Origin: Salinibaculum litoreum
GTDB taxonomy: Archaea; Halobacteriota; Halobacteria; Halobacteriales; Haloarculaceae
Reading direction: 5' to 3'
Length of the DNA: 64,000 bases
Assembly (NCBI GenBank): GCA_009789175.1
Contig: CP046866.1
Span: forward strand, 2,046,001 to 2,110,000
Below the pieces are notes generated by a model that was not told the origin of the DNA, did no database searches, and was given only the letters and a program-made list of their open reading frames with translations. Below, piece after piece: positions 52,948 through 63,456 of this stretch (within the stretch, counting starts at the first letter, position 1; the number at the start of each line of letters is the position of its first letter). The position numbers and the translations under genes are program-made.

Positions 52948-54117
52948 GTGATGGGTGGGCAACGAATGCTCTCACCCCACGGAAACGACCTGGTTGACCG
53001 CTGTCTCTCCTCGGACAGGAGCGACCAGGTCCGCGCGGACTTCGACGAGTTCGTCACGGTCACGCTGGACCGGACACTACTTTTCGACTTCGCTAACATC
53101 GCTCGCGGCGTCTACAGCCCGCTCAGGGGCTTCATGTCTCGCAACGACTTCCTCAAAGTCATCAACGACCTTTCGCTCGAAAACGGCGTCACCTGGCCAC
53201 TGCCGGTCGTGCTCGACGTCGATACCGACCTCGCGAATCAGATGGAACCAGGCGACCGCATCGGACTCCGCCGGTCCGACGGCGAACCAGTCGGTGTCAT
53301 GGACGTCGACAGCGTCTACCGCTACAACGAGACCGAAACCTGCGAGCAACTGTTTGGGACCACCGACGACGACCACCCCGGCGTCAGACTGCTCGCCGAC
53401 AAGGAGCCCTTCTTCGTCGGTGGCCCAATCAAGGCATTTTCCGACGCCATCCCCCGCAACGGTTCACACGACATCTCGCCACGGGAGGCACGGGTCCTCT
53501 TCAAGAAGAAGGGCTGGAACTCCATCGTCGGCTTCCAGACCCGCAACGTGCCCCATCGCGCTCACGAGTACCTCCAGAAGTCCGCGCTCGAACACGTCGA
53601 CGGGCTGTTCATCCAGCCGAAAATCGGCGAGAAGAAGCCGGGCGACTACACCAACGACGCCATCATCGAGGGCTACGAGACGCTCGTCGAGGGCTACTAC
53701 TCCACTGAGATGGTCACGCTCTCGATGTTCAAATCGCGGATGTGGTACGCGGGACCGCGTGAGGCTGTCTTCGACTCCATCGTCCGGAAGAACTTCGGTT
53801 GTACCCACTTCATTATCGGCCGCGACCACGCGGGCGTGGGCAACTACTACGGCGACTTCGAGGCCCAGGAACTGTTCGCCGCCGTCGGCGACATCGGCAT
53901 CGAACCGCTGTACTACCACTACGCCTTCTACTGTACGGTCTGTGACGGCATCGTCTCCGAGAAAATCTGCCCTCACGACAGCGAGCACCACATGGAGCCA
54001 AGCGGGACGAAACTTCGCGGGATGCTCGGTGACGGAGACAGTCCCCCGGCAGAACTGATGCGCCCGGAGGTCGCCGAAAGGGTATTGGAACTGGACGGGG
54101 TATTCGTGGAGGAATAA
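52948..54117 (+). CDS. sat: Sulfate adenylyltransferase (ATP sulfurylase)
   Basis: A 389-residue monofunctional Sat, forming APS from sulfate and ATP. Active-site motifs are 'GFQTRNVPHRAHEYLQKSAL' (QxRN plus HRAH, about residue 197) and 'FIIGRDHAGVGNYYGDFEAQ' (GRDH, about 291). A C-terminal zinc-like cluster 'CTVCDGIVSEKICPHDSEHH' is present. The ATG at 52948 is used here; MLSPHGND at 52966 is a good alternative. The stop shares one base with the APS kinase ATG. Confidence 0.93.
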   Translation: MMGGQRMLSPHGNDLVDRCLSSDRSDQVRADFDEFVTVTLDRTLLFDFANIARGVYSPLRGFMSRNDFLKVINDLSLENGVTWPLPVVLDVDTDLANQMEPGDRIGLRRSDGEPVGVMDVDSVYRYNETETCEQLFGTTDDDHPGVRLLADKEPFFVGGPIKAFSDAIPRNGSHDISPREARVLFKKKGWNSIVGFQTRNVPHRAHEYLQKSALEHVDGLFIQPKIGEKKPGDYTNDAIIEGYETLVEGYYSTEMVTLSMFKSRMWYAGPREAVFDSIVRKNFGCTHFIIGRDHAGVGNYYGDFEAQELFAAVGDIGIEPLYYHYAFYCTVCDGIVSEKICPHDSEHHMEPSGTKLRGMLGDGDSPPAELMRPEVAERVLELDGVFVEE

Positions 54118-54737
54118 TGTTCACGCTCTGGTTCATGGGCCGACCGGCCTCCGGGAAGTCGACGCTGGCCAGCCGCGTCGAAGACCAGCTCGTCGACCTC
54201 GAGTATCCAGTCGAGAATCTCGACGGTGACGACATCCGCAAACACCTCCACCCCGACCTGGGCTTTTCGCGGGAGGACCGCCGCACCAACAACCGCCGCA
54301 CTGCCTACATCGCCAAACTGCTCAATCGCAACGACATCCCCGTCATCGTCGGGATGATTACGCCGTTCCGTGACTCCCAAGAGCAGGCCCGAGACATCAT
54401 CGAAGAGGAAGGCGAATTCGTCCTCGTCTACGTCAAGTGTTCCGTCGACACCGCCGCAAAACGGGACCCGAAGGGCCTCTACGAGCAGGCCCGCGACGGC
54501 AACATCGAGAAGTTCACCGGCGTCAACCACCCCTTCCAGGAGCCGCTGAACCCCGACATCGTCGTCGACAGCGAGGACTTCTCCGTCGAGGAGAGCGTCG
54601 GCCACGTGATGACCCGCCTCGACGAGATGGGCGTCTTACAGGAACACTTAGATGAGGGGTATAGCTTCTCGCTCAGCCGTGACGAGGAACAGGAGATTAC
54701 CGACCGACTGCAGGAGCTGGGTTATCTGGACGAGTGA
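54117..54737 (+). CDS. cysC: Adenylylsulfate (APS) kinase
   Basis: A 206-residue APS kinase converting APS to PAPS. Walker A is GRPASGKST (residues 8-16), the APS pocket 'LDGDDIRKHLHPDLGFSRED' is conserved, and 'VKCSVDTAAKRDPKGLYEQA' is the family lid. It follows sat immediately (TAATG overlap), so PAPS is made from sulfate in two steps. PAPS then serves sulfotransferases or assimilation. Confidence 0.92.
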   Translation: MFTLWFMGRPASGKSTLASRVEDQLVDLEYPVENLDGDDIRKHLHPDLGFSREDRRTNNRRTAYIAKLLNRNDIPVIVGMITPFRDSQEQARDIIEEEGEFVLVYVKCSVDTAAKRDPKGLYEQARDGNIEKFTGVNHPFQEPLNPDIVVDSEDFSVEESVGHVMTRLDEMGVLQEHLDEGYSFSLSRDEEQEITDRLQELGYLDE

Positions 54738-54779
54738 GTGCGACGCCCGTTCCGACTCTCGGTCACGCGCCCGAGTCGG

Positions 54780-55658
54780 TCACGCGCTCGGGAGCGGGCG
54801 ACGGGCACCAGCGCGCTCCCGGAGTTTTTCGAGATGGTCGGCACCCAGTCGGACCTCACCGATTCGGAACTTCCCCGAATCGGGACCATGACAGTCCGAG
54901 CCGCCGGTGTGTAGCAGGTCGTACTCGGTGGCGATGGTAGCCGCGTCTGTCGAGTCAATATCTGCGTAACTGTCGCTGGAGACGGCCCCGTATGGATACG
55001 GAACCTCGATGGCGTCCAGCCCTGCCTCGACGAGTGTCGAGACAATCGATTCGATATCGGCGGTCCTGATGCGGCCGGGATGGGCCAGCGAGACGACGCC
55101 CCCAGCACCCCGAATCGCCTCAATGATCTCGGCGGCAGACACTCGTTCCATCGGGACGAATGCCGTACCGTCGGCACCGAGGTATTCGTCGAAGGCCTCG
55201 CCGACAGAATCGACGACGCCCTCGTCGACGAGGACACCCGCGATGTGTGGTCGTCCGAGAATACCGTCGGCCGTTGCTCGCACGTCCTCGTAGGACCGCT
55301 TCAGTCCAGCCAGGTCCCGGAGACATTCGACAAGTCGGCGGTTCCGGTCGCGGCGGTACTCCCGGACCTGCTCGAGGACTGCGTTCAAACGCTCATCAGT
55401 CGGGTCGACGTAGTACCCCAGGAGTTCGACTTTCGTGTCCTTGACGCCCGCCCGCACCTCGACGCCGGTGACGAGTTCGATGTCACTGTGGACGCTGAAA
55501 CGGCCGTCGAGGTCCGTCGAAATCGTGTCGTGGTCCGTAACGGCGATGGCGCTAAGGCCACGCTCCTGGGCCTGGTCGACGCGATCCGCAACCGAACAGG
55601 TCCCGTCAGAAGCAGTGGTGTGCATATGCAGATCAGCAACACCCTCAACAAGACTCAT
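54780..55658 (-). CDS. PHP-domain phosphoesterase (candidate PAP phosphatase)
   Basis: A 292-residue PHP metal-dependent phosphoesterase. Metal ligands appear as 'VADLHMHTTASDG' (His11, His13), 'VTDHDTI', 'VTGVEVRA', 'GRPHIAGVLVDEGV', 'VVSLAHPGR' and 'GGSDCHGPDSG'. Some members are 3',5'-nucleoside bisphosphate phosphatases that degrade PAP. Position opposite sat-cysC makes that role attractive here, but it is inferred. Confidence 0.85.
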   Translation of the reverse strand: MSLVEGVADLHMHTTASDGTCSVADRVDQAQERGLSAIAVTDHDTISTDLDGRFSVHSDIELVTGVEVRAGVKDTKVELLGYYVDPTDERLNAVLEQVREYRRDRNRRLVECLRDLAGLKRSYEDVRATADGILGRPHIAGVLVDEGVVDSVGEAFDEYLGADGTAFVPMERVSAAEIIEAIRGAGGVVSLAHPGRIRTADIESIVSTLVEAGLDAIEVPYPYGAVSSDSYADIDSTDAATIATEYDLLHTGGSDCHGPDSGKFRIGEVRLGADHLEKLRERAGARRPLPSA

Positions 55659-55801: not shown

Positions 55802-57607
55802 ATGCCGGACGAAAATACGGACCTGACGCGGCGCGAGCAGGCACGAACCGTCTATCGCGCCGCGCAGTTTCGCCCGGGCCTTGCGGCCGGGATTATTCTC
55901 TGTAGTCTGGTCGCTGCCGCACTCGAGGGGCTTGGACTGACCTTTCTGCTCCCGATTCTGGAACTGGCACAGAACCCGGAGGCCGCCCAGGATGCAGGTG
56001 GCGAACTCGGCATCTTCGTGTCCGCGTTCGAGTTCTTGCAGATTCCGTTCGAACTGGAGTCCGTAATGTTGGTCGTCGGGGCCGTCTTCGTCGTGCGATA
56101 CACGTCGAGTTTTCTGGTCGGGTGGCTACGGGCACTGCTGGGACAGGACTATACGCGGTATCTACAGAAGGAAGCCTACAGCAAGGCGCTCAACGCGGAA
56201 GTGGCGTACTTCGACGAGCAGGGTTCCGACGACATTTTGAACACGATCGTGACCGAGGCCAGCCAAGGCTCGACTGTGGTGACTCAGGTCACGAAGCTCT
56301 TAGAACAGGGGATGTTAGCGGGGATGTACCTCGCAATTGCAGTCTACGTTTCCCCTGTGTTGACACTGTTAGCGGCAGTATTGCTCGGTGGCCTGACCCT
56401 CGTACTGCGGTGGGTCGTCGAATCCGGATCGACAGTCGGAAATCGCGTTGCCGAGGCGAACCGTCGTATCCAGAAGAGTGCCCAGGCGGGAATGCAGGGG
56501 ATTCGTGACGTGAAGCTGTTCGGGATGGTCCCGGAGCTGTACGATACGTTTGAGGAGTCCGTGGACCAGAGGAAAGCCTCCCAAGTGAAATTGCGGCGGA
56601 ACGAGACGGCGATGAACAAGTTCTACGATCTGGCCACAGTGCTGACGCTTTTGTTTCTCATCTACTGGGGCCTCGTCTTCTCGGGGCTGTCGCTGGCTGC
56701 ACTCGGTGTGTTCCTGTTTGCGATGTTTCGGCTGGCTCCACGGGCGAGCACGCTCAATAGTTACTTCTACAAACTGGAAGGAAAGATCCCTCACCTCTAT
56801 CGAACACAGCAGTTTCTGGGTGAACTCGACAACAGGCAAGAGCCAGAGAGTGACAATAAACCAGTGCCAGACGACATCGGCGAAGTGACCTTCCAGAACG
56901 TGTCGTTTGCGTATAGCACCGGCGAAGTCATCTTCGAGGATCTGTCCTTCACAATTGGAGGTGATGATTTCGCAGCGTTCGTCGGCCCGTCCGGGGCGGG
57001 AAAATCCACGATCGCGGCACTGTTAAGTCGCATGTACGAGCCTGATGGCGGAGAAATCCGTGCCGATGGCACGCCAATCAGGGAGTTTGACATCGACGAG
57101 TGGCGGGAACAAGTGTCCGTGGTGCGGCAGCATCCGTTCATCTTCAACGAAACGCTACGACGCAACGTGACGATTGCGAACCGGGGGGCGAGTCACGAGG
57201 AAGTCGAGCGTGTCTGTGAGATTGCACAGGTGACGGAGTTTCTGGACGAGCTGCCCGAGGGCTACGATACGAAACTCGGTGAGGAGGGCGTCCGGCTGTC
57301 AGGGGGGCAAAAACAGCGGGTCGCACTGGCACGGGCGCTGTTGAAAGACGCCGAACTGTTGGTACTCGACGAGGCGACCAGCGATCTGGACGCCAATATC
57401 GAAGAGACGGTTCAACAGGCCATCGAAGCGATGGACCGTGATTACGCGATGCTGGTGATTGCCCATCGGTTGTCGACTGTGATTAATGCTGACTGTATCT
57501 ATGCCGTTGAAGATGGAGAGATTGTTGAGTCGGGCACCCACGACGAACTGATATCGAGTGGTGGGACGTACTCGGAGCTGTACGAGACGCAGGCGCAGAG
57601 TGTGTAA
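55802..57607 (+). CDS. ABC exporter (transmembrane-ATPase fusion, MsbA/PglK-like)
   Basis: A 601-residue half-transporter from the ATG at 55802 (MPDENTDLTRREQARTVYRA). It has an N-terminal six-helix domain and a C-terminal ATPase with Walker A GPSGAGKST, signature LSGGQKQR, Walker B LLVLDEATSDLD and H-loop IAHRLSTV. The fold group includes lipid and lipid-linked oligosaccharide flippases. Its place beside PAPS and glycan genes makes a flippase likely. Composition is slightly more AT-rich than sat and cysC. Confidence 0.88.
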   Translation: MPDENTDLTRREQARTVYRAAQFRPGLAAGIILCSLVAAALEGLGLTFLLPILELAQNPEAAQDAGGELGIFVSAFEFLQIPFELESVMLVVGAVFVVRYTSSFLVGWLRALLGQDYTRYLQKEAYSKALNAEVAYFDEQGSDDILNTIVTEASQGSTVVTQVTKLLEQGMLAGMYLAIAVYVSPVLTLLAAVLLGGLTLVLRWVVESGSTVGNRVAEANRRIQKSAQAGMQGIRDVKLFGMVPELYDTFEESVDQRKASQVKLRRNETAMNKFYDLATVLTLLFLIYWGLVFSGLSLAALGVFLFAMFRLAPRASTLNSYFYKLEGKIPHLYRTQQFLGELDNRQEPESDNKPVPDDIGEVTFQNVSFAYSTGEVIFEDLSFTIGGDDFAAFVGPSGAGKSTIAALLSRMYEPDGGEIRADGTPIREFDIDEWREQVSVVRQHPFIFNETLRRNVTIANRGASHEEVERVCEIAQVTEFLDELPEGYDTKLGEEGVRLSGGQKQRVALARALLKDAELLVLDEATSDLDANIEETVQQAIEAMDRDYAMLVIAHRLSTVINADCIYAVEDGEIVESGTHDELISSGGTYSELYETQAQSV

Positions 57608-58441: not shown

Positions 58442-60172
58442 TCACTCTCCTTTCAATTTCCACGATTCTGCACGCTCGTATTTATCCTTCAAACTTACCC
58501 CCATGTAATCCTCAACTCTGACATCAGGTGCATATGTTTCAAGAAATTCATTCAGTAATTTAGTTGCGATGAGATATGAGACGACGCCGCGGGACTTCGA
58601 GGGGTTATTGTAGAGTTGAAATGGAATTAGGCTTGAGAAGTGCATGGCCTCGTTGAAATGGACTCGCATCATCGTCTCATGAGCGGACTTAGAAGTGAAT
58701 TGCGTAAAGAGATCTTCCAGTTCTGACTGTATCTGGTGATACTCGCGTAATACCTCTTTTTGTGTAAAGTCAACAGATGCAGTTAATTTGTCTCCAGATA
58801 GCTCGTAATCAAGTTTGAAGTTCTGAGTATCGATGAAGTCATATAGACCGTTGACTGAATGAGAAATTTTCCCCAAGTCGTAGTACGGGTCACAGGCATC
58901 GTATCCCCGAGGATCAACCAATATGAAATCTTTAATCTGGTCGCTTACCAAGATATTCTGGAAGTGCATATCGAAATGTCCGAAAGAGCTGAGTTCTTTC
59001 GGTGTTACCCCTTGGCAGATCTCTTCATTGTCCTCGATACACGAAATGAGGGGTGGGATATTGACGTATTCTCGACCGTTGAACTCAATCGAATCGCACC
59101 TCAGGAAATCAGAAAATATCTCTGCATCCCTCTCTGCACGATACAACCGGTACCAGACTCTATTGAAGTGTATCCGCTCAAGGTATTTCTCGTCGGGCGG
59201 CGTCATTTCGTGATTGTACATATTGTTGAAAGAGAAGTGCAATAGAGCATTTAATTGCTTCAACGCATCCTGATGGTTGAACACTCCATTAAACAAAAGG
59301 TCGCGAAGGGAGGGGCGATCACAGAATTCCTGCTCGAGCCAGACCCTATCTTCACCGATGTAGTAGTCTTTCATCCGTGGGAAATGCTTCGCCACACTCT
59401 CGGGAAGATGCCGGTAAAATTCGATTTCGTCTTCTAACTTCGCGAGTCCTCTCCCCTGGACTTCCTTTCTGAAATACACGGGCTTCTTTATAATTGCGTA
59501 TGAGCTCCCCGTTATTGACTTGGTTTTTTGGCTGGAGCCGCCAGGAATGCTACTTTCATCGACATATATGTCGAAATCAGAGGAGAGATCACCAATAATA
59601 TCGACTATGCTACGATTGGTATCAGTCTGAGTAAATATTTCTCGAAGGATCGTACTGGCCAGCACCGGGTTGACTTTTGCGATGCCTGAATAGAGATACC
59701 ACGGGTAATCGTCTCTGGGTACCGTACTGCCAGCAGCTGAAACAACAGATTTTGAGGTCTTGATGCGTTCTTGACCAGCCGAGATACTTTTAGCGGGATC
59801 TACGACTAGTTCGTTCTGATACGGCGAATTAGAAAGCCGTCTAAGCTGTTTCGGATTAATAATTACGTCCCCATTGATGAGAAGGATACTTTCATCATCT
59901 TGCTCAGTAGATTTATCCAACGCACCTAATAAATGACTTATTTGACCTAATTCAGTAATGATAGTACTGTCGGTACTTCGCTCCTCTAGATCGGAAATAT
60001 AGTCGACCTTCCTCTCTAAATCATTAATGGTGATATATATATCCTCTATGCCAGCACTCTTCAGTTTTCGGTGTTGTTGCTCGATGAGAGTTTCGTTCTC
60101 AACTTGGAGCAAACAATGAGGTGTATCGCCAGGAAGAGTTGGACTACCGCCAGCTATAATGAGAGCCTTCAT
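58442..60172 (-). CDS. Nucleotidyltransferase-kinase fusion
   Basis: A 576-residue protein. The N-terminal ~230 residues are a sugar-nucleotidyltransferase fold ('MKALIIAGGSPTLPGDTPHC', 'DDESILLINGDVIINPKQLR'), but the usual GxGxR and PK residues are replaced (GGSPTL; PHCLL). The C-terminal part is an aminoglycoside/choline-kinase-like fold with 'FGHFDMHFQNILVSDQIKDF' (HxDxxxxN) and 'LVDPRGYDACDPYYDLGKIS' (metal Asp). Such pairs activate small groups for surface polysaccharides. Composition is strongly AT-rich, unlike the core. Confidence 0.8.
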   Translation of the reverse strand: MKALIIAGGSPTLPGDTPHCLLQVENETLIEQQHRKLKSAGIEDIYITINDLERKVDYISDLEERSTDSTIITELGQISHLLGALDKSTEQDDESILLINGDVIINPKQLRRLSNSPYQNELVVDPAKSISAGQERIKTSKSVVSAAGSTVPRDDYPWYLYSGIAKVNPVLASTILREIFTQTDTNRSIVDIIGDLSSDFDIYVDESSIPGGSSQKTKSITGSSYAIIKKPVYFRKEVQGRGLAKLEDEIEFYRHLPESVAKHFPRMKDYYIGEDRVWLEQEFCDRPSLRDLLFNGVFNHQDALKQLNALLHFSFNNMYNHEMTPPDEKYLERIHFNRVWYRLYRAERDAEIFSDFLRCDSIEFNGREYVNIPPLISCIEDNEEICQGVTPKELSSFGHFDMHFQNILVSDQIKDFILVDPRGYDACDPYYDLGKISHSVNGLYDFIDTQNFKLDYELSGDKLTASVDFTQKEVLREYHQIQSELEDLFTQFTSKSAHETMMRVHFNEAMHFSSLIPFQLYNNPSKSRGVVSYLIATKLLNEFLETYAPDVRVEDYMGVSLKDKYERAESWKLKGE

Positions 60173-60985
60173 AACTTGCTGAATCCGCTGACAACGTATT
60201 AGCGTTGTGCTCTATTACATTCTGCCCTCGTAAAACGGCGAACAATATGAGATACGGATCAACGACTCGGTATTTTCTGTATATTAACCTCGAGACACTA
60301 TAGTTGAGGAATTATTATATTTATACCATGATAACTCAGCGCAGTTCACCTGGCCCACTCAGTTCTGAATCGTAGCATCTGTGCCGTCAGGAATTACTAT
60401 CAGGGGTTTCGTATTCACATTAGATATATCTGTGTCGTCGTCGGAGAACTCACAGCGAAGCGCTACATTCGAGGTGGTGGATTTGTATCGACCTCACAGA
60501 ATTGCCGACCATTTTGGCGTTCATCCGGTATCCCTGAGCAAACGCTTCATTCCAGTGCGATGGTTTCAGCCAGCAGGTGCTGAGCGTATTATCACCCCGG
60601 ATTAGCGAGTTGTTTCTGACTGTCGATAGTGTGAGCCATGCTGTGAGGTGAGCGGGTTGACACTGAGCGCTTAGAACTCGTGCTTTATACTATCCGTAGA
60701 AGTCTCGGTCACCGTTCGATAGCAGGCCGTCCGAGTTCTGGGGAATGACCCTAGCCAGGCGCCGACACTCCCCAGCGAGGGCTGACAGCGACAGCCGTCT
60801 ATAGGAATCGATTTTTGAGGTTAGCCGCTTCACCCGAGTTTTCACAAAGTAACCCGCTCTTCATTGAGACACTGAGTTGTTGTAGGATGCTTAACCATCC
60901 AGTCCAGTCAAGCGTGTCGGGTGGGTCAAAACCGTCAAAATCCCCAACCCACAGATTAATTTTCCATCGATTCCCATCCCTAAGC
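60173..60985. other. 813-bp region between divergent glycan genes
   Basis: No intact gene. The first ~160 bases are AT-rich and must carry the promoter for the fusion gene. The rest holds short frames of poor composition on both strands. A possible transposase tail lies at 60799-60935. The last 60 bases lead into the aldolase start. Confidence 0.4.
60799..60935 (-). pseudogene. Possible transposase C-terminal remnant
   Basis: On the minus strand, 'DTLDWTGWLSILQQLSVSMK' then 'SGLLCENSGEAANLKNRFL' ends at a stop. The helix-like, Ser/Gly tail reminds me of insertion-sequence transposase ends, but I cannot name the family. Confidence 0.25.
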
Positions 60986-61981
60986 ATGTCGGTTCAGTTG
61001 CTTGATTGTACGCTACGAGAGGGAGCACATCTCAATGACGGGGAGTTCGGGAGAAAGACAGTCATCAACATCATAAACAGCCTATCAAAAGCTGGCGTCG
61101 ATTTTATCGAACTTGGTTTTCTTCGGGAAGTCGAAGATAACCGAGACTCGACAATATACAATTCGATTGAAAAAGTGAATACATTGCTTTCTGAGTGTGA
61201 TACATCGGAGGCGGCAGAATACGTCGTGATGGTCCGTCCGGGCCGTTTCGATATAAGCAATCTCACCGAACCAGAAGGTCAGTGTTCTACTGTACGAGTG
61301 GCCTTCTACAAACACCGGTTAGAGGCAGCCATCGAGTATGGGAAACAAGCACGAAAACTAGGATACGACGTATTCCTGAACCCAATAGCCATCTCAAGTT
61401 ACGACGACAGCGAAATTCGGAGTCTAATCAAGCGGGCCAACGACTTCGATCCGAGAGGGGTAAACATGGTTGATACGTTCGGCGCACTCGACCATGACAG
61501 ATCAGCAGAACTGTACGAACAGTATACTGCGCTGGACGACGACATCAAGATTGGACTCCACTATCATCAGAATCTAACACTACAGGTTGGGAATTGTATT
61601 AACATCATCACGGATACAGACTCAGAGAAGCGTATCACCGTCGATGGTTCGTTGTATGGAATGGGTAGATCACCCGGAAATCTACAAATAGAGGTGATTT
61701 CTGAATACCTGAACAGTAACTACGGTGCAGAATATGAAATTGATGCACTCTTTGATGTGATAGAAGATGTAATAAAGCCCATGAAACATGAGTACGACTG
61801 GGGTTATTCACCTGCTTATTTCATATCTGCGATCCACAACGTCCACCGAACGTATGGTGAGAAGCTCAAGGACAAGAGTATACCGTTGGCAGAAATTGAC
61901 GACTTTTGTCGTTCAATCAGTGGTACTGAGGCCGCAATGAGTTACGAGGAGGGCATTGTAGACGATTACTTCGATGTCTGA
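60986..61981 (+). CDS. DRE-TIM-type aldolase (HOA-like)
   Basis: A 331-residue TIM-barrel protein starting at the ATG at 60986 (MSVQLLDCTLREGAHLNDGE). The DRE-type start 'LLDCTLREGAHLND' resembles DxTLRDG (Asp-x-Thr-Leu-Arg-Glu). Metal His residues fit 'IGLHYHQNLTLQVGNCINI', and 'VDGSLYGMGRSPGNLQIEVI' (GMGR/GN) is typical of 4-hydroxy-2-oxovalerate aldolase-like proteins. In surface-glycan loci this group makes unusual carbon chains. Its stop overlaps the HAD gene. Confidence 0.8.
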   Translation: MSVQLLDCTLREGAHLNDGEFGRKTVINIINSLSKAGVDFIELGFLREVEDNRDSTIYNSIEKVNTLLSECDTSEAAEYVVMVRPGRFDISNLTEPEGQCSTVRVAFYKHRLEAAIEYGKQARKLGYDVFLNPIAISSYDDSEIRSLIKRANDFDPRGVNMVDTFGALDHDRSAELYEQYTALDDDIKIGLHYHQNLTLQVGNCINIITDTDSEKRITVDGSLYGMGRSPGNLQIEVISEYLNSNYGAEYEIDALFDVIEDVIKPMKHEYDWGYSPAYFISAIHNVHRTYGEKLKDKSIPLAEIDDFCRSISGTEAAMSYEEGIVDDYFDV

Positions 61982-62621
61982 ATTTACTGAAATCATATTT
62001 GACTTCGACGGCGTGTTAGCAGACTCAAATGAGCCAAAACTCGATTGTTTCAGACGGGTTGCAGCATCCTATGATCCTTCCGAAGCGGACGAGTTTCTAT
62101 CATATTGTAAATCTTCACCAGATAAGTCACGGTTCGAACTGATGCAGGCATTGGAGGACAAGTTGATAAAAAAAGGAATCTCGGTCACTTACGAAGAGTT
62201 GCTGAACGAGTACTCTGATTGTGTTCAAAAAGTCTATCACAGAGTGGACCGGGTGAAAAATCTAGATGAGTTGAAAAAAATGGACCCCGAACTAACTTGG
62301 AGCATAGTGTCGGCAGCACCACAATCGACGCTGCGGGAGTTATTACGAGACCAGGGAGAACTGGAACTGTTCGGGGGCGGTGTGTACGGGTCGCCACGGA
62401 GTAAAGAGCAAATATTCACCGAGGAGTACGATCCCGAACATTTAGTGAACAATGCACTCTTCATCGGAGATAGCGCATCTGATAAGAATGTCGCAGAGAA
62501 ATTTGATCTCGAATTCATCTACGTCGAGAAGTGGTCACGAGAGCGGGATAAGTGGTTAGCAGATGAAGCGGACGTTCCCACCTACAGAAACGTCAAGGCC
62601 GTGTTCGCTGATCGCGTATGA
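61974..62621 (+). CDS. HAD-family phosphatase
   Basis: A 215-residue haloacid-dehalogenase-fold hydrolase. Motif I is DFDGVLADS (nucleophile Asp), motif II 'WSIVSAAPQSTLREL', motif III Lys in 'GSPRSKEQIF', and motif IV 'ALFIGDSASDKNVA'. It has a C1 cap. It overlaps the aldolase gene by 8 bases (61974-61981) and probably dephosphorylates the aldolase product. Composition is AT-rich like its neighbours. Confidence 0.85.
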   Translation: MSEFTEIIFDFDGVLADSNEPKLDCFRRVAASYDPSEADEFLSYCKSSPDKSRFELMQALEDKLIKKGISVTYEELLNEYSDCVQKVYHRVDRVKNLDELKKMDPELTWSIVSAAPQSTLRELLRDQGELELFGGGVYGSPRSKEQIFTEEYDPEHLVNNALFIGDSASDKNVAEKFDLEFIYVEKWSRERDKWLADEADVPTYRNVKAVFADRV

Positions 62622-62724
62622 ATATACAGAATTCTCATATATATCTTCCTTTTCGCTAATTTTTTCTATACAGGACAGGAAGGGAACGGTACATTGAAAC
62701 AACTGCATATACTTTCTGACGGTA

Positions 62725-63456
62725 ATGATACCGGCTTTGGTGATTGGAAGGGAAGGGAGTAGAAGCTTTCCGAGTAAGAACGTTACAGAAGTGCTAGGCC
62801 GACCACTCTGTTGGTACCCGATGAAAGCGGCAAAAGAAAGCGATTCCGTCGATACCACGTATGTTTCGACAGACTTTGATGAAATTATGGCAATCGCGGA
62901 GGATTTGAATCTAAATACGATCGAACGGGATCCCGAGTTAGCAACCGACAAGGCTTCCGGCTGGGATGCGTTCAAAGATGGCTATGAAACGATTTCCGAG
63001 CGCGAATCCGAAGACGTAGAGGCTATCGTCTTGTTGCTCTGCAATTGTCCAACACTAACGGCCGACATGATAGATGAGGGGATAAGGATGTTACGGCAGG
63101 ACGAAGACCTTGATTCGGTTGTCCCGGTAAGTAAATACAATATGCGGAGTCCTGTTAGGGCGAGAAAAATCGAAGAGGAACGACTTGAGCTATTTATGTC
63201 GGTCGAGGAGATAGAAGGTGCATCTTCCCATCGAGATACACAGGCTAATACGTACTTTGCGGATGGTACGTTCATCATTCGCCCACACTGTTTCAACATG
63301 GACAATGGAGATCCACATCTGCCAGTCATCGGAACAAACGTGAAACCTCTAAAAAACGAGGCTGGTCTAGATGTTGATTTCGAATGGCAGCTCCCGCAGG
63401 CAAAGTACTGGTTACAGGAACACGGCTTTACCTCAGACGATACACCATATAATTAA
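62725..63456 (+). CDS. CMP-sugar synthetase-like nucleotidyltransferase
   Basis: A 243-residue protein of the acylneuraminate cytidylyltransferase (NeuA/KdsB) type. The CTP-loop is 'ALVIGREGSRSFPSKNVTEV' (R-x-G-S-R-x-x-x-K-N), followed by 'GRPLCWYPMKAA' and 'STDFDEIMAIAEDLN'. A later 'DADW...'-like acidic loop ('VDFEWQLPQAKYWL') fits the family. It would join CMP to an acidic sugar. A TATATATC-rich stretch at 62637-62645 lies upstream. Confidence 0.82.
   Translation: MIPALVIGREGSRSFPSKNVTEVLGRPLCWYPMKAAKESDSVDTTYVSTDFDEIMAIAEDLNLNTIERDPELATDKASGWDAFKDGYETISERESEDVEAIVLLLCNCPTLTADMIDEGIRMLRQDEDLDSVVPVSKYNMRSPVRARKIEEERLELFMSVEEIEGASSHRDTQANTYFADGTFIIRPHCFNMDNGDPHLPVIGTNVKPLKNEAGLDVDFEWQLPQAKYWLQEHGFTSDDTPYN

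Follow-up and report, generated by a model that had tools for sequence, protein, structure and literature searches.

PAP is a toxic by-product of sulfation. Two archaeal PAP phosphatases, MtPAPP and the Pyrococcus yayanosii pApase (PyapApase), are encoded beside ATP sulfurylase (Sat) and APS kinase (ApsK), according to the accessible parts of the papers that describe them (PMC10322725, PMC8268124). The available text of the second paper also reports pAp hydrolysis by CV1693 of Chromobacterium violaceum, a 3',5'-nucleoside bisphosphate phosphatase (PMC8268124). Sulfated surface glycans are known from haloarchaea, and in the characterized route, described in a source available in part, they are sulfated in Halobacterium salinarum by the sulfotransferases Agl30 and Agl31 (PMC11980604). 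In the main text of the paper on that route, the term PAPS has 0 occurrences (PMC11980604). Here we describe a haloarchaeal locus that we read, with a probability of about 0.72, as a PAPS-sulfation module that includes its own PAP phosphatase, a member of the PHP family.

The window that we analyzed is a stretch of 64,000 nucleotides (C1:2046001-2110000) from a haloarchaeal genome of 3.73 Mb. On its forward strand, sat (52966..54117; 383 amino acids from ATG 52966) is followed by apsK (54117..54737; 206 amino acids), and a PHP phosphoesterase gene lies on the reverse strand (54780..55658; 292 amino acids). Profile scans bore out these three identities, which had been assigned in the original prediction. 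Sat matched PF01747 (276 bits) and PF14306 (PUA_2) and scored 355 bits against a cut-off of 323 for TIGR00339, placing it among the ATP sulfurylases (sulfate adenylyltransferases); the protein contains the stretches QTRN...HRAH and GRDHAG, which we take to be ATP sulfurylase motifs. ApsK is an APS kinase by both PF01583 (178 bits, cut-off 21) and TIGR00455 (179 bits, cut-off 139), and the PHP protein exceeded the PF02811 cut-off of 26.4 with 36.7 bits. The gene content was thus as originally described, but the start given for sat was not retained: the reading frame is open upstream to that GTG, at 52948, and because the Sat homologues of relatives open with M-x-x-P-H-G-N, ATG 52966 is the likelier start. 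Within TAATG, sat ends and apsK begins on one common base, an arrangement that suggests coupled translation. The PHP gene, said to lie directly opposite, is indeed on the opposite strand; more precisely, it is convergent with apsK, tail to tail, with a 42-base gap between the stop ends.

Divergent from the PHP gene is a gene for an ABC exporter of the MsbA/HepA type (55802..57607, forward strand; PF00005 and PF00664, with the HepA and MsbA models scoring below cut-off), which is at most a candidate part of the module. It is followed by a probable surface-glycan island (starts 58442..63456) with genes for an NTP transferase (58442-60172, reverse strand) and, on the forward strand, an HMGL-like aldolase (60815-61981), a HAD phosphatase (61974-62621), and a CMP-sugar synthase-like protein (62725-63456). 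The row formed by the last three (60815-63456) suggests an unusual CMP-activated acidic sugar. The island runs beyond the window, where it includes glycosyltransferase genes of GT61 and GT4 as well as genes of the sulfatase superfamily; epimerase-like ORFs also belong to it.

The genome carries a second copy of the module at C1:1299924-1302600, with the same gene order and strands. Amino acid identity between the copies is 94% for Sat, 93% for ApsK, and 73% for PHP, and at the DNA level the two are about 87% identical across Sat-ApsK and 75% across PHP. Since the Sat-ApsK-PHP layout recurs in this copy and in other genomes, it is more than chance. The original prediction had looked to the sequence past 64 kb for sulfotransferases; a whole-genome search for PF00685 and PF13469 found no gene of either family near the window copy and one near the second copy. 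This gene encodes a Sulfotransfer_3 protein (346 amino acids, 83 bits), lies 5.3 kb from the second-copy sat, and is the sole PF13469 match in the genome. A sulfotransferase in the island downstream of the window copy was considered and rejected, as 10 selected ORFs scanned there (GT61, GT4, sulfatase superfamily, and others) contained no PF00685 or PF13469 match. The surroundings of the second copy include two sulfatase-superfamily genes, a flippase gene, and glycosyltransferase genes. Genes of the sulfatase (alkaline-phosphatase) superfamily occur near both copies (L055:9026-10429, L055:14683-15945, L003:12594-13964, and L004:5697-7034). Agl30 and Agl31 of Halobacterium, glycan sulfotransferases according to the available part of their description (PMC11980604), belong to the same superfamily.

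A Sat search of genome contigs gave 4 loci, with relatives named Natronomonas and Halovenus. Of 293 genomes sampled from the order, 9 had a Sat match, as did 13 of 392 in a larger draw that includes the Sat genomes of the earlier set and 5 of 14 named control genomes, Haloferax volcanii being among those without. Sat and ApsK occurred together in 11 of the 392 genomes, at 12 loci, and adjoined each other at all 12, so that ApsK-paired Sat modules are sporadic in haloarchaea. The ORF picker in our script was crude, leaving gene ends approximate in unnamed loci and joining or missing genes in some (e.g., L061, L080, and L091); for this reason the counts rest on tblastn matches and hmmscan.

The Sat-ApsK pair was closely associated with sulfotransferases. 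A PF00685 or PF13469 protein was encoded within 10 kb at 11 of the 12 loci (the second copy in our genome, G196, G216, G011, G186, G224, G244, G304, G324, G354, and G373), the window copy being the exception, so that each of the 10 genomes of this draw that share the pair with ours had one; the protein in G304 was called by its 79% identity to a scanned Halovenus rubra protein. Among the 293 genomes, PF13469 was present in 14, which included all 7 with ApsK beside Sat (Fisher p 1e-10, kinship ignored). Strong ApsK matches (E below 1e-40) were found in 21 genomes, which hold 13 of these 14 (p 2e-16, kinship uncorrected), the exception being G227; ApsK matches of any strength occurred in 289 of 293, mostly as weak P-loop matches. 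The Sulfotransfer_3 match in G227, which had no strong ApsK or Sat match, lies in a 1,494-amino-acid ORF (L082:5720-10204).

In the pathway that we propose, Sat would convert sulfate and ATP to APS, and ApsK, probably cotranslated with Sat, would phosphorylate APS to PAPS. PAPS-dependent sulfotransferases, of the kind encoded near the second copy and in relatives, would then move the sulfate onto an acceptor, and the convergently encoded PHP protein, as a metal-dependent phosphatase for 3',5'-bisphosphates, of the CV1693/RNase AM type, would hydrolyze PAP to AMP and phosphate and so relieve product inhibition. We infer these reactions for the organism from the genes described above. The original prediction had proposed sulfation of surface glycans rather than assimilation; the choice of sulfation is well supported, and the sugars of a surface glycan, built by the products of the neighboring glycan genes, are the most likely acceptor, to judge from those neighbors.

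The structural evidence places the PHP protein close to CV1693 and RNase AM. Its AlphaFold model (pLDDT 90) matched 3e0f (Z 32.0), 9etk (29.1), 2yb1 (28.8), and 7ug9 (24.3), with the next match at 15.9. For RNase AM, the available part of the published description gives H13, E72, D255, D20, H45, and H257 as metal ligands, together with a phosphate-binding R201, a 5'-phosphate pocket of R107/R110/R141, and a stacking F161, much as in CV1693 (PMC9410882). The counterparts in the window PHP protein are H11, E67, D255, D18, H43, and H257 for the ligands and R196, R102/R105/R136, and F156 for the pocket, and all of the named positions were kept in the 9 Sat-linked PHP rows of our alignment. By its fold, ligands, three arginines, and stacking phenylalanine, the protein thus falls into the CV1693/RNase AM structural group, with one substitution, at the position of H83, where it has E78; this residue was Glu in the Sat-linked and unlinked rows, Asp in the general and class II rows, and His in four reference enzymes. 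The same positions, pocket residues included, were kept equally well by all 22 of the general haloarchaeal PHPs among the matches listed, and they are therefore a trait of the wider family and not proof of PAP as the substrate. The best NCBIfam model was that for 3',5'-nucleoside bisphosphate phosphatase (NF041577), at 152 bits against an equivalog cut-off of 400, which leaves the protein outside that family as defined. It matched only PF02811 and PF13263 and is not an archaeal PAP phosphatase of the DHH/DHHA1 type.

PHPs at any distance were present in 290 of the 293 genomes, and close homologues of the window protein (E below 1e-60) in 8. Because the placement of long reference branches was unsure in a first tree, a second was built without reference sequences. 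In its 40 rows, 9 Sat-linked and 3 unlinked PHPs split with 100/100 support from 28 general and class II PHPs (the 22 general rows being among the matches listed); the Sat-linked rows alone formed no supported clade (36/0). A member of this clade lay within 5 kb of Sat at 9 of the 12 Sat-ApsK loci of the 392-genome draw. Of the 7 Sat-ApsK genomes in the set of 293, 5 had the clade PHP (Fisher p 7e-8, kinship ignored), and in all 5 it lay within 5 kb of Sat: downstream and convergent in our genome and G196, upstream and divergent in G216 and G011, and 4.4 kb away in G186. A prediction set beforehand held in three fresh Sat genomes out of three (G324, G354, and G373), in each of which we found a sulfotransferase and, no more than 5 kb away, the PHP; the fourth new Sat genome, G304, was left out as already seen. 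No clade PHP was found anywhere in the genomes of G224 and G244, which had only distant PHPs, or in the searched neighborhoods of G304 and of Halovenus salina locus L013. Conversely, G238, G060, and G048 (64% complete) carry a clade PHP and had no Sat or strong ApsK match; that of G238 adjoins sulfatase-superfamily matches and a glycosyltransferase gene.

Two lines of doubt bear on this pathway, one about the fate of PAPS and the other about the PHP protein. PAPS might be made for assimilation, being reduced to sulfite and then to sulfide, and the genome does encode both an NIR_SIR (PF01077) protein and a PF01507 protein. The nearest NIR_SIR gene is ~137 kb from the module and scored best against nitrite-reductase models, below cut-off, and the sole PF01507 gene, at C1:337220, is 1.76 Mb away and was rejected as a PAPS reductase gene, its product being CysD-like. 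No CysH model scored above cut-off in the genome. Among the ORFs that we scored around the module, none encoded a PAPS reductase, a sulfite reductase, or another assimilation enzyme; the original prediction had named adjacency of such genes as grounds for abandoning sulfation. In relatives, at two loci lacking ApsK (G025 and G037), a Sat of 44 to 46% identity adjoins a nitrite/sulfite-reductase-family gene, and the fetched stretches contained no ApsK, sulfotransferase, or PHP match, whereas the ApsK-paired Sat accompanies sulfotransferases. Assimilation is therefore very improbable as the purpose of this module. At L001:967-1986, a CysD-like PP-loop protein carries PAPS_reduct as its sole Pfam label, in a genome with no CysH above cut-off.

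The role of the PHP protein in a sulfation module is less firmly fixed. It might be an exoribonuclease acting 5' to 3', like RNase AM, or a general nucleotide phosphatase, with PAP cleared by a DHH/NrnA or IMPase/CysQ enzyme. The accessible parts of the literature describe the proven archaeal PAP phosphatases as DHH enzymes (PMC10322725, PMC8268124), and our genome has six DHHA1 matches, five of them above cut-off, as well as two proteins of the IMPase family, which scored weakly as CysQ; each of these could take the place of PHP in clearing PAP. The fold is equally close to RNase AM (9etk, Z 29.1) and CV1693 (Z 28.8), and four Sat-ApsK loci (G224, G244, G304, and L013) have no clade PHP nearby. 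Against this stand the tight linkage to Sat in all five genomes with both, of the 293, in varied orders and strands, and the separation of the clade from typical haloarchaeal PHPs; we consider a nuclease or general phosphatase unlikely, while giving it more weight than assimilation. PHP-fold tyrosine phosphatases go with capsule genes in Gram-positive bacteria, and the ABC exporter and glycan genes next to PHP would suit a protein-tyrosine phosphatase of the CpsB/YwqE type, one that controls the export of polysaccharides and lies near the PAPS genes only as a fellow member of glycan islands. The model, however, gave Z scores of just 8.4 (3qy6) and 7.7 (2wjd) against tyrosine-phosphatase folds, compared with 24.3 to 32.0 for the NBPase/RNase AM group, and the nucleotide-pocket residues are retained, making this the least probable of the alternatives. 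Co-occurrence, adjacency, the modeled fold, and the conserved pocket point indirectly to the PHP protein as the likely hydrolase of PAP.

PHPs also occur beside APS kinase in another setting. In 14 further genomes, at 15 loci (L067-L081; e.g., L069:8608-11651), we found another type of ApsK, about 40% identical, in an operon that encodes a 407-amino-acid sulfotransferase-family protein, then ApsK, and then, mostly, a YqcI/YcgG protein. In the one member scanned, ApsK is fused to an NMNAT/CTP_transf-like domain and the YqcI/YcgG protein shows a weak likeness to the N-hydroxylase GntA. An argininosuccinate synthase or look-alike ORF lies beside the operon in L076, L077, and L081, and a search of these genomes found no Sat match. 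The operon has the appearance of a pathway that yields a small molecule bearing sulfate. A PHP of a separate clade (100/100) was found within 10 kb at 6 of the 15 loci. The occurrence of PHPs beside APS kinase in two settings, whose loci are interrelated and not independent, strengthens the case that they act in PAP turnover. Tentatively, PHPs may have been recruited as PAP phosphatases at least twice in haloarchaea, in the Sat-ApsK-sulfotransferase module, with Glu78, and in the fused-ApsK operon, where the fused nucleotidyltransferase domain might even stand in for ATP sulfurylase; such recruitment, if real, would provide a PAP-clearing route apart from DHH and CysQ and PAPS-dependent sulfation apart from Agl30/31.

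The module thus offers a complete candidate route, comprising activation, transfer, and by-product removal, in identified carriers. Like Agl30/Agl31, it would serve surface-glycan sulfation in a haloarchaeon; its sulfotransferases are of PF00685/PF13469, whereas those two, in the accessible text, are of the alkaline-phosphatase superfamily. The PHP protein, which from its place beside the activation genes probably clears PAP, shares with CV1693 (PDB 2yb1/2yb4, the structure solved with AMP and phosphate) the PHP fold, at Z 28.8 over 265 aligned residues, as well as the phosphate-pocket arginines and stacking Phe. It differs from CV1693 in overall sequence (29% identity over the structural alignment), in having Glu78 rather than His at the position of RNase AM H83, and in being archaeal and linked to PAPS synthesis and sulfotransferases. 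RNase AM (YciV) of E. coli and Vibrio cholerae (7ug9, 9etk) has the same fold, metal ligands, and R107/R110/R141/F161 but is a 5'-3' exoribonuclease, and the available text on it does not name sulfate genes in connection with it. MtPAPP and PyapApase, as described in the accessible portions of their papers, resemble the proposed PHP enzyme in removing PAP and in having Sat and ApsK gene neighbors, and differ from it in being DHH-DHHA1 enzymes of a fold unrelated to PHP; MtPAPP serves assimilation and PyapApase comes from an assimilatory-type cluster, whereas we read the window module as one for sulfation. We found no publication on a Sat-ApsK-PHP module in the open-access literature, a coverage that takes in few subscription journals. 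Since the archaeal PAP phosphatases known next to Sat and ApsK are DHH enzymes, the logic of the neighborhood is familiar and the family is different: the PHP enzyme is a candidate archaeal PAP phosphatase besides the DHH kind and, if confirmed, would be new for archaea as far as the accessible sources go.
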